A DNA stretch of 40,606 nt. It comes from Candidatus Gastranaerophilales bacterium. GTDB taxonomy: Bacteria > Cyanobacteriota > Vampirovibrionia > Gastranaerophilales > Gastranaerophilaceae. The notes under the pieces were generated by a model. That model was given only the letters and a program-made list of their open reading frames with translations. It did no database searches and was not told where the DNA came from. Shown here piece by piece: positions 26,237 to 31,573 of the stretch (position 1 is its first letter; each line of letters opens with the position of its first letter). The stretch covers positions 1-40,606 of the forward strand of contig CALURG010000017.1 in the NCBI GenBank assembly GCA_944323115.1, read 5' to 3'. Both the position numbers and the translations under genes were made by a program.

Positions 26237-28609
26237 ATGGAAAAAGCAGCAGAAAAAATTACGCTCGACACACTACAAAAAGGAAAAGATGCGATTATTC
26301 AATCCATAGACTGCGAGGACAAAGCACTCAGGCATCACATTCTTGATATGGGTTTGACGCCCGGTGTTGAAGTCACACTGGTGAAGGCCGCTCCTATGGG
26401 CGACCCTCTTGAAATCCGTGTAAGAGGCTACGAGCTAACTTTAAGAAAAGCCGATGCGGCTAATATTTCTGTATACGGTATACACGATGCCCACAATTGT
26501 CCGAGAAAAAATATAGCATTTGCTGATACGGAACATTCACAAAAAGGTGAAACCCAGTCTTACAGAAGAAGCAAAAAATTAAAATCCAATCCAAAAACAA
26601 AAATATCGTTTGCTCTTGCCGGAAACCAAAACAGTGGGAAAACTACACTTTTCAACAAACTTACCGGTTCACACCAGCATGTTGGAAATTTTCCCGGTGT
26701 TACCGTTGACAGAACGGACGGATTTTTAAAAGGATATAAAGATGTAACCATCACCGATTTACCGGGTATTTATTCTTTATCCCCTTACAGCAATGAAGAA
26801 ATTGTCACAAGAAATTTTATACTGGAAGAAAAACCCGACGCAATAATAAATATTGTAGATGCAACAAATATTGAGCGAAATCTTCTTTTAACCATGCAGC
26901 TTATTGAACTTGATGTACCTATGGTTATTGCACTAAACATGATGGATGAGGTAAATGAAAACGGCGGAAGTATTGACGTAAACGGTCTTGAAGCAGAACT
27001 CGGAATCCCTGTTATTCCTATAAGTGCATCTAAAGGTCAAGGTATTCAAGAGCTTGTCGAGCACGCAATAAATGTTGCAAAATACGAAGAACATCCCGGC
27101 AGGCTTGATTTTTGCGAAGCGGATGACGAAAAAGAAGGTGCCGTGCACAGATGTATTCACTCAATAATTCACCTTGTGGAAGACCACGCAAAGGCGGCAA
27201 AGATTCCTTTACGTTTTGCCGCAACAAAAATTACGGAAGATGATGAGCTTATTCTCAGTGCATTGAACCTTGATGAACAGGAAAAAGAAAACTGTGCACA
27301 GATAATAAAAACTATGGAAGAAGAGCGTGGGTTGGACAAAGAAGCTGCTCTTGCAGATATGAGATTTTCTTTTATTGAAAAGCTTTCTCAAAAATTTGTC
27401 CAAAAACCTTCGGAATCAGCCGGGTACAAACTTTCAAAAAACATTGATAAAATCCTGACCGGAAAATACACGGCAATGGCTGCATTTTTGGTTATTATGG
27501 CTTTTATATTCTATATGACTTTCGGGCCTTTCGGCACATTTCTTTCAAATATCATGGACATTGCCATAGAATGGGCAACAAATTTGACTGATAGTGCTCT
27601 TGATGCGTACGGGCTGAATCCTGTAGTCCATTCTTTAATAATCGATGGTATTTTTGCGGGTGTAGGCAGTGTATTGAGCTTTTTACCGATAATAGTTGTT
27701 TTGTTTTTCTTTTTATCAATTCTTGAAGATACAGGCTACATGGCACGTGTAGCTTTTGTTATGGATAAACTGCTCAGAAAAATAGGGCTTTCCGGCAGAA
27801 GTTTTGTTCCTATGCTTATCGGATTCGGTTGTTCTGTGCCGGCAATCATGGCGACAAGAACATTGCCTTCCGAACGTGACAGAAAAATGACCATATTTTT
27901 AACACCGTTTATGAGCTGTTCCGCAAAATTGCCTATATACGCTCTTTTTACGGCGGCATTTTTTGTACGTCATCAGGTGTTTGTAATTTTGGGTTTATAC
28001 ATTATCGGCATTGTTGTCGGAATAATATTTGCTTATTTTATGAAATTTTTTGTGTTTAAAGGTGAACCCGTGCCGTTTGTAATGGAATTGCCAAATTACA
28101 GAATGCCAAGTGCAATGAATGTCTACAGGCTGATTTATACGAAAGCGAAAGGTTTTGTAACAAAAGCGTTTACAATAATATTTTGGGCAACAATTTTTGT
28201 ATGGTTCTTGCAGACTTTTGATTCAAGATTAAATTTGGTTACAGACGCTTCACAGAGCCTTCTGGCTATGCTGGGCAGCTGTATTGTTCCGGTGTTTGAG
28301 CCTCTTGGTATTTCGGATTGGCGTGTTACGACTGCGTTTATAACCGGGTTTATGGCGAAAGAAAGCGTAGTCAGTACATTAACAGTATTATTAGGCGGAG
28401 AAACGGACAAGCTGCCTGCACTGTTTACACCGCTCAGTGCTTTTGTTTTTCTTATTTTTTCACTTTTGTACACTCCTTGTGTTGCAACTATCGCAACAGT
28501 CAAAAGAGAACTCGGGAAAAGGTATGCACTGCTTGTTGTCTTGATACAGTGTTCAATTGCGTGGCTTGTTGCATTTCTTGTCTATTTGTCAGGCAGTTTG
28601 ATTTTTTGA
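26237..28609 (+). CDS. feoB: FeoA-FeoB fusion, ferrous iron transporter
   Basis: A 790-residue fusion. Residues about 8-80 form a FeoA SH3-like domain (ILDMGLTPGVEVTLV, then GDPLEIRVRGYELTLR). After a basic linker (RRSKKLKSNPKTK) comes the FeoB GTPase domain: G1 GNQNSGKT (129-136), G2 region VGNFPGVTVDRT, G3 DLPGIYSL, G4 NMMDE, and the G5 region ISASKGQG. The membrane part has paired Gate motifs, VLSFLPIIVVLFFFLSILED and LIGFGCSVPAIMATRTLP with the conserved Cys. It imports Fe(II) through the inner membrane. Start ATG 26237 after AAGGAA. Separate feoA and feoC genes are absent, as expected for a fusion. Its end overlaps the convergent DUF3737 gene by 21 bases. Confidence 0.95.
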   Translation: MEKAAEKITLDTLQKGKDAIIQSIDCEDKALRHHILDMGLTPGVEVTLVKAAPMGDPLEIRVRGYELTLRKADAANISVYGIHDAHNCPRKNIAFADTEHSQKGETQSYRRSKKLKSNPKTKISFALAGNQNSGKTTLFNKLTGSHQHVGNFPGVTVDRTDGFLKGYKDVTITDLPGIYSLSPYSNEEIVTRNFILEEKPDAIINIVDATNIERNLLLTMQLIELDVPMVIALNMMDEVNENGGSIDVNGLEAELGIPVIPISASKGQGIQELVEHAINVAKYEEHPGRLDFCEADDEKEGAVHRCIHSIIHLVEDHAKAAKIPLRFAATKITEDDELILSALNLDEQEKENCAQIIKTMEEERGLDKEAALADMRFSFIEKLSQKFVQKPSESAGYKLSKNIDKILTGKYTAMAAFLVIMAFIFYMTFGPFGTFLSNIMDIAIEWATNLTDSALDAYGLNPVVHSLIIDGIFAGVGSVLSFLPIIVVLFFFLSILEDTGYMARVAFVMDKLLRKIGLSGRSFVPMLIGFGCSVPAIMATRTLPSERDRKMTIFLTPFMSCSAKLPIYALFTAAFFVRHQVFVILGLYIIGIVVGIIFAYFMKFFVFKGEPVPFVMELPNYRMPSAMNVYRLIYTKAKGFVTKAFTIIFWATIFVWFLQTFDSRLNLVTDASQSLLAMLGSCIVPVFEPLGISDWRVTTAFITGFMAKESVVSTLTVLLGGETDKLPALFTPLSAFVFLIFSLLYTPCVATIATVKRELGKRYALLVVLIQCSIAWLVAFLVYLSGSLIF

Positions 28610-29452
28610 TTCTCTGACACAGACTCTGCCCTTGCATTTGACAGCAGCATTTTCAAGTATAATATCTCCTATACTGTCTGCTTCTATAAGTCCTGATTTT
28701 GGATTTTTGACAGAATCTATGTGTCCTTGAATTTCTGCATTTACATCGGAATATTCAAATGCCAGGTCAGTGTGTTCCATAGTACAGTTTATGAGTTTAA
28801 GATTTTTGCAGTAACAAAGAGGTTGTGTGCCTATTATGTGACAATTTACAAAGGTAAGGTTTTGTGAAAACCATCCGAGATATTCCCCTTTGAGTGTACA
28901 ATTTTCTACCACAACATCTTTGCTGTGCCAAAAAGCGTCTTTTGTATCAAGTTTTGAATCTTTTATGTACAGGTTTTTCATGTATTGAAAAGAATATTTT
29001 CCTGTCATTTTCAGATTTTTAACTTTAACATTTTTTGATTCAAACAAAAAATACATAGAATCTATTGTTGAATTTTCTATGGAAATATCGTGACATCGCC
29101 AGCCAAACTCTTGAGAGTTTATTTCACAGTTTTTTATTGAAACATTTTTGCATTCTCTCAAACACTTGATGCCGTTTATTTTACAGTTTTCGATACTGCC
29201 GTTTTTGGAATACCACAAAGGTGCCCTTGTCAATTCGTTCATGCCGGAAGAAACGAGACAGAATCTGTCTGCATGCCACAGCGGATAACGCAATGAAAAA
29301 TTGCAATTTTTTACACAAAAATTTCTGCATTCTTTCAAAACGGATTCTCCGTCTGCCGGGCCTGCAAATGTGCAGTTTGCCACTTCCGTATTTTTTACGT
29401 TGTACAATGCACGTTCTTCGTCAAATGTTCGGTTAGTGATTAATTTTTTCAT
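28589..29452 (-). CDS. DUF3737 right-handed beta-helix-like protein
   Basis: A 287-residue protein of the DUF3737 family. The sequence is a regular series of short beta coils with ladder residues (NCKINGIKCLRECKNVSIKN, VVENCTLKGEYLGWFSQN, LTFVNCHIIGT), as in right-handed beta helices. The start MKKLITNRTFDEERALYNV is typical. Cys is unusually frequent. No catalytic motif is known for the family, and there is no signal peptide, so it is cytoplasmic. The divergent MerR gene and the 19-bp-spaced promoter (29481-29511) suggest that the MerR protein activates it. The gene overlaps the feoAB end by 21 bases tail to tail. Confidence 0.85.
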   Translation of the reverse strand: MKKLITNRTFDEERALYNVKNTEVANCTFAGPADGESVLKECRNFCVKNCNFSLRYPLWHADRFCLVSSGMNELTRAPLWYSKNGSIENCKINGIKCLRECKNVSIKNCEINSQEFGWRCHDISIENSTIDSMYFLFESKNVKVKNLKMTGKYSFQYMKNLYIKDSKLDTKDAFWHSKDVVVENCTLKGEYLGWFSQNLTFVNCHIIGTQPLCYCKNLKLINCTMEHTDLAFEYSDVNAEIQGHIDSVKNPKSGLIEADSIGDIILENAAVKCKGRVCVRESKNQTA

Positions 29453-29480: not shown

Positions 29481-29511
29481 AGTTTAACTCTTGAGAGTTA
29501 CTCTCAGTCAA
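29481..29511 (-). promoter_or_regulatory. MerR-type promoter and operator of the DUF3737 gene
   Basis: Minus strand: TTGACT (29506-29511), 19 bases, TAAACT (29481-29486). The over-long spacer carries TGAGAG-TAA-CTCTCA (29492-29506 on the plus strand), a perfect dyad with 6-base arms. Over-long 19-20 bp spacers with a central dyad are the hallmark of promoters that MerR-family activators untwist. An overlapping dyad, AACTCT-TG-AGAGTT, shares one arm. Confidence 0.75.
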
Positions 29512-29568
29512 TTCTTTTTGTGCTAAAATATAAAAAAATGTAAAACTTTTATGACAAGGAGTCTTTAT

Positions 29569-29985
29569 ATGTACACAATAAAAGAAGTTGCGGACAAAAT
29601 GGAAATATCCGAACACACATTGAGATTTTGGGCAAAAAGCGGTTTTTTCCCGTTCTTAAAAAGGAATCACAACAATATACGTTTGTTTTCTGATAATGAT
29701 TTGGAGTGGGTAAAAATTGTAAAATGTCTGCGTTCTGTCGGTACGGAAAACAAAGCTATCAAAAAATATATAGATTTATGCATTATCGGCGATTCCACTA
29801 TTCCGGAAAGATATGAGATTATAAAAACTACAAAAAATAAAGCATTGCAGCAGATGGAAGAACTAAAAAAACAGTTAGAATTACTTGATTACAAAGAAAA
29901 TTTTTATCAAAATCTGATAAAAAATAATCTGAAAGATGAATGGAATCCGATGAACAAATCAAAACCGGAAGAAGAAGCTGTTTAG
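29569..29985 (+). CDS. MerR-family transcriptional regulator
   Basis: A 138-residue regulator. The N-terminal winged helix begins MYTIKEVADKMEISEHTLRF, with wing 1 residues around RNHNNIRLFSDNDLEWVKIV. A long helix at 85-125 (IIKTTKNKALQQMEELKKQL) would form the antiparallel dimer coil. There is no Cys in the C-terminal part, so it is not a metal or redox sensor of the MerR, CueR or SoxR type; it resembles the NmlR/AdhR-like subgroup. I use ATG 29569 (AAGGAG eight bases upstream); an earlier ATG at 29551 lies in the ribosome-site region. It probably controls the divergent DUF3737 gene and its own transcription from the intervening dyad. Confidence 0.9.
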   Translation: MYTIKEVADKMEISEHTLRFWAKSGFFPFLKRNHNNIRLFSDNDLEWVKIVKCLRSVGTENKAIKKYIDLCIIGDSTIPERYEIIKTTKNKALQQMEELKKQLELLDYKENFYQNLIKNNLKDEWNPMNKSKPEEEAV

Positions 29986-30121: not shown

Positions 30122-31573
30122 ATGCAAATTTCTTCCGTCTCGTCGTACAAAAATTATTTAAATAATTCTCCTTCGGTTGACAGAAAAAAATTCTCCGGAG
30201 TGTCTTTTTGTGCAGCGGAAATTTCAAACAAAGATGTTATAGAGTTTGACAATGAGCGGATTTTGTTTAACAAAGCTCTTTCAAAACTGAATTATATAAA
30301 CAAAGAAGAATATGATTCACTTACGGAACAAGAAAAGAAAATTTTGTCAAAAAAACTTTCGAAATTGCAGGGTGCGAGGTACAAACAAGAGATAAAAGAA
30401 GATATTGAACTTCATCAATTTGCGGCTGAGGCAATAAAAAAAGTTTTGGATGCAGAGTATAAAAGAGGAAATTATGTTGTTATTACGATAGGCCGCTCTC
30501 TATCTTCAATATCCAAGCTTCTTGAAATGAAAATTGGCAAAGAAAATGTAAAAAATATTCCAATGTCATCACTGCACAGGTTTTATGTGATAGGTGACAG
30601 TTATAATGAATATGAAGATGTTACAAAAAATATAAATAAACTTAAAGGAATAGAAAATTTCAAAGCATACTTAAACAAGTTGGGTCTGAGCAGACAAGAA
30701 ATAAACAATTCAAAAAAACACTATATTATTATGGATTACACTGCAAGCGGTGCTTCTTTGCGAGGAGCATATACGGTTTTGACTTCCGACAAACTTTTGG
30801 GCAACGACAAAAGAAATATAATAACCGCTTCCATTGCTGATATAACTTATGCAACAAGCGAAAATGAAAAAGCTTACAAACTTGACCAATCTCTAAATCA
30901 TAGTTTGTTTAAAAGGTATTCTTTCGTAGACAGCTTGAGCAGGGATTTTGATAATATAGAAGACGCTGTAGGACCTGTATTTTCTGATGAGACTCAAGAT
31001 TCAGTCCAAAAACGCAAGCTTTTCGGATTTGGGCTGCTGGATAGCGAATATTCCCCAAAAAACAAAGACAAAAAAGATGATTTTATGCTGACTCCTCACA
31101 ATCATAAATATCCGTGCCAGGATAAAGAACTTTGGGCCACAAACAGAAAAAAATACCATTCTGATGTTAGAGAGGACGTTCAAGAAATTTATAAACTGAT
31201 ATATCGCTTGGAAAAAACTATCAAAGAATATCAAAAGAATAAAAGCCAAAATCTTGAAATAATAAAAAATACAGACAATGAGACTGTCCGGCATGTTTCA
31301 AAACTCTTTGAAGAAAGCGAATACAAAATGATAAAAACTCAAAACTTTTTGAAAAATATGGCAAAAAGTTTAAAGAAAAATTTTTCATTGTTAAACGAAA
31401 ACGACAAAATGATAACGGATTATTATACAGTAATTCGTCCCCGTGTACTAAAGTCAATAAATACGTTAAATCAAAGATATTCAATTGAAAAATGTCAAAA
31501 ATACGTTGAAAATTTAAACGAAATATTTTCAAAAAAGATTGAAAAAAAAGACGTCAGATTTTATAGTGCATAA
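30122..31573 (+). CDS. hypothetical protein with phosphoribosyltransferase-like core
   Basis: A 483-residue protein of no family I can name. Residues about 115-220 hold YVVITIGRSLSSISKLLE and, 80 residues later, HYIIMDYTASGASLRGAYTV. A buried beta strand followed by D-Y-T-A-S-G-A-S-L is the layout of the PRPP loop of type I phosphoribosyltransferases (hydrophobic strand, D-D/E-x-x-x-T-G-x-T/S). The exact acidic pair is missing, so it may be a divergent or non-catalytic member. The N-terminal 30 residues (MQISSVSSYKNYLNN, KKFSGVSF) look unstructured. The last 120 residues are Lys-rich coiled coil (LIYRLEKTIKEYQKN). Start ATG 30122 has no strong ribosome site. It lies between a MerR gene and accC without clear operon links. 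Confidence 0.55.
   Translation: MQISSVSSYKNYLNNSPSVDRKKFSGVSFCAAEISNKDVIEFDNERILFNKALSKLNYINKEEYDSLTEQEKKILSKKLSKLQGARYKQEIKEDIELHQFAAEAIKKVLDAEYKRGNYVVITIGRSLSSISKLLEMKIGKENVKNIPMSSLHRFYVIGDSYNEYEDVTKNINKLKGIENFKAYLNKLGLSRQEINNSKKHYIIMDYTASGASLRGAYTVLTSDKLLGNDKRNIITASIADITYATSENEKAYKLDQSLNHSLFKRYSFVDSLSRDFDNIEDAVGPVFSDETQDSVQKRKLFGFGLLDSEYSPKNKDKKDDFMLTPHNHKYPCQDKELWATNRKKYHSDVREDVQEIYKLIYRLEKTIKEYQKNKSQNLEIIKNTDNETVRHVSKLFEESEYKMIKTQNFLKNMAKSLKKNFSLLNENDKMITDYYTVIRPRVLKSINTLNQRYSIEKCQKYVENLNEIFSKKIEKKDVRFYSA

Follow-up and report, generated by a model that had tools for sequence, protein, structure and literature searches.

Proposed regulation of DUF3737 by a divergent MerR-type gene

Is the gene of an uncharacterised protein family, DUF3737, switched on by the small MerR-type regulator encoded next to it, and if so, in response to what? 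The locus lies on contig G000:C17, 40,606 bases long and referred to here as the window, in an assembly of 1.88 Mb and 100 contigs; the named assemblies nearest to it by DUF3737 are 'Candidatus Gastranaerophilales', and the host most likely belongs to this gut lineage. An earlier note on this DNA had claimed a promoter of the form TTGACT-N19-TAAACT with the dyad TGAGAG-TAA-CTCTCA in front of the divergent DUF3737 gene, adjoined by a merR-like gene, and had proposed that the adjacent MerR protein runs this promoter. The promoter is indeed present at 29481-29511 on the minus strand, and the divergent pair was confirmed by profile matches to Pfam DUF3737 (PF12541; 6.8e-115, 383 bits versus a cut-off of 23.9) and to MerR_1, the N-terminal MerR winged HTH (8e-17, 61.5 bits versus a cut-off of 21.6). 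The genes are separated by an intergenic region of 116 bp (Table 1). DUF3737 is solitary in its direction and lies tail-to-tail with feoB.

Table 1. Features of the merR/DUF3737 locus (positions in the window)
Feature	Position	Strand	Remarks
feoB	26237-28609		convergent neighbour of DUF3737
DUF3737 gene	28589-29452	-	287 aa, predicted right-handed beta-helix
-10 element TAAACT of DUF3737 promoter	29481-29486	-	N19 from -35; N19 also family-wide (117/123 sites)
Second perfect dyad TAACTCT-TG-AGAGTTA	29485-29500	strandless	overlaps the putative operator; judged non-functional
Spacer of DUF3737 promoter	29505-29487	-	19 bp
Putative operator dyad TGAGAG-TAA-CTCTCA	29492-29506	strandless	centre 29499; also written TGAGAG-TWA-CTCTCA
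-35 element TTGACT of DUF3737 promoter	29506-29511	-	direct reading; retained in 5/5 same-genus adjacent pairs
Probable extended -10 of merR, TGCTAAAAT	29521-29529	+	inference from similar elements in orthologues
RBS AAGGAG of merR	29556-29561	+	direct reading
merR-like regulator gene	29569-29985	+	138 aa, NmlR/AdhR-like, Cys53 and Cys71
ORF	30122-31573	+	483 aa, 3' of merR on the same strand; N-terminus MQISSVSSYKNYLNN...KKFSGVSFCA

The start of merR was moved from 29551, the position given previously, to the ATG at 29569, because AAGGAG stands in front of this codon and the orthologues align from that Met. A TG-N-TANNNT motif similar to the probable extended -10 element of merR is found upstream of most merR orthologues. 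With this element, the -35 position of merR would fall inside the dyad, and autorepression is therefore implied.

The centre of the dyad and the 3' end of the DUF3737 promoter's -35 box lie 7 bp apart, an offset described for odd-length MerR-family sites (PMC5045206). We rejected the 6-bp dyad by itself as a significant signal, because 36% of shuffles of the 116-bp intergenic region contain a perfect arm of at least 6 bp with a loop of at most 5. The joint architecture of -35, N19, -10 and dyad, however, arose in only 7 of 200,000 simulated random sequences. That the dyad arose by chance, the intergenic region being AT-rich, is thus vanishingly improbable despite the frequency of such arms, and the deep conservation described below already refutes it. 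The second dyad, on which the earlier note was silent, was rejected as an operator, since it is out of MerR register and not retained in relatives; a 7-bp arm arises in 13% of shuffles. A terminator-like prediction for the dyad was not credible, given its position between divergent genes.

Conservation of the promoter together with the regulator

The regulator is present in 21 of the 23 genomes of the genus, and in five of these (G000, G002, G007, G018 and G019) merR is adjacent to DUF3737. The earlier note had suggested comparing homologous merR/DUF3737 pairs for the dyad; when this was done, all five same-genus pairs found were seen to share both dyad and spacing, in the form TTGACT-GAKAG-YNR-CTCTC with exactly N19. 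Both architecture and conservation support a MerR-type activatable promoter for DUF3737, run by the MerR protein encoded beside it, as had been claimed.

The search was extended to 286 genomes of the order. The family pattern TTGACTGANAGNNNCTNTCA, which places no condition on the -10, matched in 96 of them, and a pattern including the -10 at N19 matched in 123, while the reversed-pattern control gave 0 matches in every genome. Using A2 and T6 as the -10 criterion, we found a -10 at exactly N19 in 117 of 123 distinct fetched sites, compared with N17 in two and N18 in six. This count is the strongest evidence that the 19-bp spacing is functional.

Orthologues of merR were defined by E<1e-50 (118 genomes), a threshold from which distant paralogues (best E 5e-26) are clearly separated by a gap. 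With the pattern that includes the -10 at N19, the site was found in 113 of the 118 genomes with an orthologue, but in only 10 of the 168 without; the Fisher p-value of 1.8e-60 ignores shared ancestry and overstates the association, because related genomes are not independent, although the ratio is nonetheless large. With the stricter pattern, the numbers were 89/118 and 7/168, respectively. The exceptions are ten genomes with a site and no merR orthologue, and five with an orthologue and no site. Across the 286 genomes, merR orthologue and predicted site occur together, and the same predicted switch and promoter recur in more than 100 related species.

Identity of the regulator and its candidate sensor cysteine

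In sequence searches against the PDB, the best matches of the regulator were to HiNmlR (2e-24). The top NCBIfam model was NmlR with 83.7 bits, followed by the next model at 38 bits, but the equivalog cut-off of 175 bits was not reached. Because the searches place the protein nearest to NmlR yet below the curated cut-off, it is named here by sequence as NmlR/AdhR-like and not as an NmlR equivalog.

Cys53 of the regulator aligns in register with Cys54 of HiNmlR. It is invariant across the genus and is also found in a Firmicutes DUF3737-linked NmlR-like MerR protein (29% identity). Cys71 is invariant in the genus and is one residue off the second Cys of HiNmlR in the alignment. In the NmlR/AdhR clade this Cys is absolutely conserved, and both HiNmlR (Cys54) and AdhR (Cys52) require it to respond to formaldehyde (PMC4776306). 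Cys53 and Cys71 point to thiol-based electrophile or redox sensing, and because Cys53 aligns with the essential sensor Cys of the clade, we propose that the inducer class would be aldehyde/electrophile or disulfide stress. It had previously been argued that the inducer is probably not a metal, since the regulator has no C-terminal Cys. The argument is reasonable but incomplete: the two conserved cysteines were overlooked.

Genes preceded by the site

The genome was scanned with the consensus plus N19 and -10, allowing up to two mismatches. Exactly two sites were obtained, and each fits the degenerate pattern perfectly: the site in the window and one at C77:10924-10954 (TTGACTTAGAGCTGCTATTAAGTAGTAATAT), which lies 10 bases 5' of the start codon (ATG) of a gene encoding a CxxCxxCC domain. 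Homologues of this gene are preceded by a site in three other fetched loci. The response is consequently not restricted to a single gene, contrary to the 'one-gene' response predicted earlier, and multi-operon regulons are predicted in relatives as well. The genes 3' of the sites in relatives encode Dxs-like proteins (20), CMD-cupin or cupin proteins (18), flavodoxin (13), aldo/keto reductase with a 4Fe-4S domain (13), FMN reductase (12), AIRC/LarB-like proteins (11) and DUF3737 (7), in addition to smaller groups; Fe-ADH and DLH hydrolase genes are also among them.

Across the order, the gene that most often follows an N19 MerR-type site is the one for a 1-deoxy-D-xylulose-5-phosphate synthase-like protein (L183:1726-3471 and 19 further loci), a surprising predominance for an electrophile-stress regulon. 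The AIR-carboxylase-domain (LarB-like) gene was likewise found repeatedly 3' of a site, at L133:1547-2227 and ten other loci.

The gene divergent from merR is DUF3737 and not adhC/estD, and class III formaldehyde dehydrogenase (TIGR02818) gave no match over the cut-off in this genome. Formaldehyde detoxification as in Neisseria and Haemophilus is therefore not the output.

The DUF3737 protein and its other putative regulators

An AlphaFold2 model of DUF3737 (pLDDT 94.8) is a right-handed parallel beta-helix, and a Pfam Beta_helix match was obtained too. When this model was used in Foldseek, the matches were generic beta-helix carbohydrate-active proteins and tailspikes (TM of at most 0.64, approximately 10% identity). 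The fold predicted earlier, a Cys-rich beta-helix, was thus correct, but we rejected any assignment of an activity from this search, as the similarity is only that of beta-helices in general. The family is highly conserved: in 48 sequences drawn from gut lineages including Gastranaerophilales, W59-H60, W80-Y81, E100-C101, F116-G117-W118, W175-H176, E190, C213-Y214 and E233 are invariant; such residues would suit a substrate-binding face. The name DUF3737 is not mentioned in the literature searched.

In many relatives DUF3737 sits behind a different conserved upstream element, TATAAGTATTTGCTATTTTT...TAAATAATA, frequently together with a LysR gene in divergent orientation, and because of this the regulator of DUF3737 seems to have been swapped at least once. 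Where the MerR promoter is absent, TATAAGTATTTGCTATTTTT-N-GTAAATAATA was seen before DUF3737 or its operon (L066, L067, L073, L078, L224 and approximately 50 more loci), often accompanied by a divergent LysR-type gene (MEIRVLRYFLTVAREGSIT...). At most of the 80 loci used to look at the neighbours of Firmicutes DUF3737 genes, an NmlR-like MerR was not detectable. L242 and L254 are the only Firmicutes-assigned loci with a TTGACT-N19 promoter and a six-pair dyad. Their dyad differs in being even-centred and TTGAGCCGACTCCAA-like; in L242, an NmlR-like MerR gene with the same Cys lies immediately upstream of DUF3737.

We can tentatively imagine DUF3737 as a previously unassigned cytosolic effector of thiol/carbonyl stress whose redox-type regulator differs from one lineage to another, a reading that is plausible to us but short of our expectation. 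It takes together the right-handed beta-helix, the strictly conserved aromatic/ionisable face and the conserved Cys with the NmlR-like MerR found here, the promoter element that in many relatives appears to be linked to LysR, and the further NmlR-like MerR of Firmicutes. If it is true, the regulatory context would be a direct handle on the biochemical function of DUF3737.

Proposed mechanism and alternative explanations

From these sequence features we infer the following scheme, which we consider probable: an NmlR/AdhR-like, thiol-based MerR protein controls DUF3737 through the dyad in the spacer, is triggered at Cys53 and has the CxxCxxCC-domain gene as its second target. A MerR dimer would occupy TGAGAG-N3-CTCTCA within the 19-bp spacer and hold the DUF3737 promoter off; it would probably also repress merR, whose -35 region overlaps the dyad. 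Modification of Cys53 by an electrophile, aldehyde or disulfide stressor would then cause the dimer to kink and untwist the DNA; this would bring the -35 and -10 boxes into alignment and allow transcription of DUF3737. The same regulator would control the CxxCxxCC-domain gene on another contig of this genome, and in relatives it would govern a wider redox/carbonyl-stress regulon.

The dyad could instead serve merR autoregulation only, the -35 and -10 on the DUF3737 side being incidental and MerR not activating DUF3737. Indeed, at six merR loci without an adjacent DUF3737 (G013, G017, G035, G012, G022 and G009) the dyad is retained upstream of merR, while the -35/-10 on the divergent side has been lost or has degenerated. 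It is, however, just this difference that makes autoregulation alone very unlikely: an intact -35/N19/-10 on the divergent side occurs only at loci with a target gene on that side (7/7 merR loci with a divergent target gene, including G245 and G187, versus 0/6), and the N19 architecture also stands before many genes away from merR. The retention of the dyad where -35/-10 are lost, and the extended -10 of merR that puts its -35 region in the dyad, suggest that the dyad has a double role in merR autoregulation and control of the divergent gene. In G013 (L014) and G017 (L003), the feoB-merR neighbourhood is maintained without DUF3737, and a dyad persists beside a decayed divergent promoter, which looks like loss of DUF3737 followed by promoter decay.

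The position of feoB, which is the convergent neighbour here and also precedes merR in G013 and G017, would fit a regulator that senses iron or another metal, as would the second target, a CxxCxxCC putative Zn/Fe-chelating protein, and an NmlR/DNA structure with bound Ni that is on record (PMC9909328). Yet feoB itself has no consensus site, the genome having just the two sites described, and in addition to the missing C-terminal metal-loop Cys pair, the metal-sensor NCBIfam models score 28-38 bits compared to 84 for NmlR. As the targets in relatives are redox/carbonyl enzymes, we judge metal sensing unlikely. Activation by a drug-like or metabolite ligand independent of thiols, with Cys53 being structural only, appears improbable to a similar degree. 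Other small MerR proteins do bind ligands, and MFS and EamA transporter genes are occasionally preceded by a site, but the C-terminal part of this 138-aa protein is a short coiled-coil tail and not a ligand domain, and Cys53 is invariant exactly where HiNmlR and AdhR need their Cys (PMC4776306).

Comparison with known systems

For a gut lineage that is familiar chiefly from metagenome assemblies, the proposed switch provides a regulon that can be tested concretely, with its operator, regulator, sensor Cys and targets, and its promoter and gene context connect the DUF3737 family with thiol/carbonyl stress. Like CueR/MerR/SoxR-type promoters with spacers of 19-20 bp, it has a dyad in an over-long spacer, centred 7-8 bp from the -35; unlike these, it has another operator sequence and lacks a metal-binding or Fe-S loop. 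The closest solved relative by sequence is NmlR of Haemophilus influenzae/Neisseria (HI_0186; PDB 5e01, 5d90, 5d8c), with the match extending over residues 2-115. The two systems share the aligned Cys53/Cys54, the divergent gene arrangement and a MerR-type promoter, but differ in output (DUF3737 here, adhC-estD there), in the NmlR cut-off and in the register of the second Cys. AdhR (YraB) of Bacillus subtilis is also a Cys-based MerR protein; its regulon contains an alcohol dehydrogenase as well as YraC, a carboxymuconolactone decarboxylase (CMD) protein, and responds to carbonyl electrophiles (PMC4776306) and to allicin/polysulfanes (PMC6943732). In contrast to the AdhR system, an adhA-type partner above the cut-off was not found in this genome, and DUF3737, CxxCxxCC, Dxs and AIRC/LarB-like genes belong to the regulon predicted for Gastranaerophilales. 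An NmlR/AdhR-like MerR regulon is thus a kind of system already known; new are the host lineage, the targets and the link to DUF3737.
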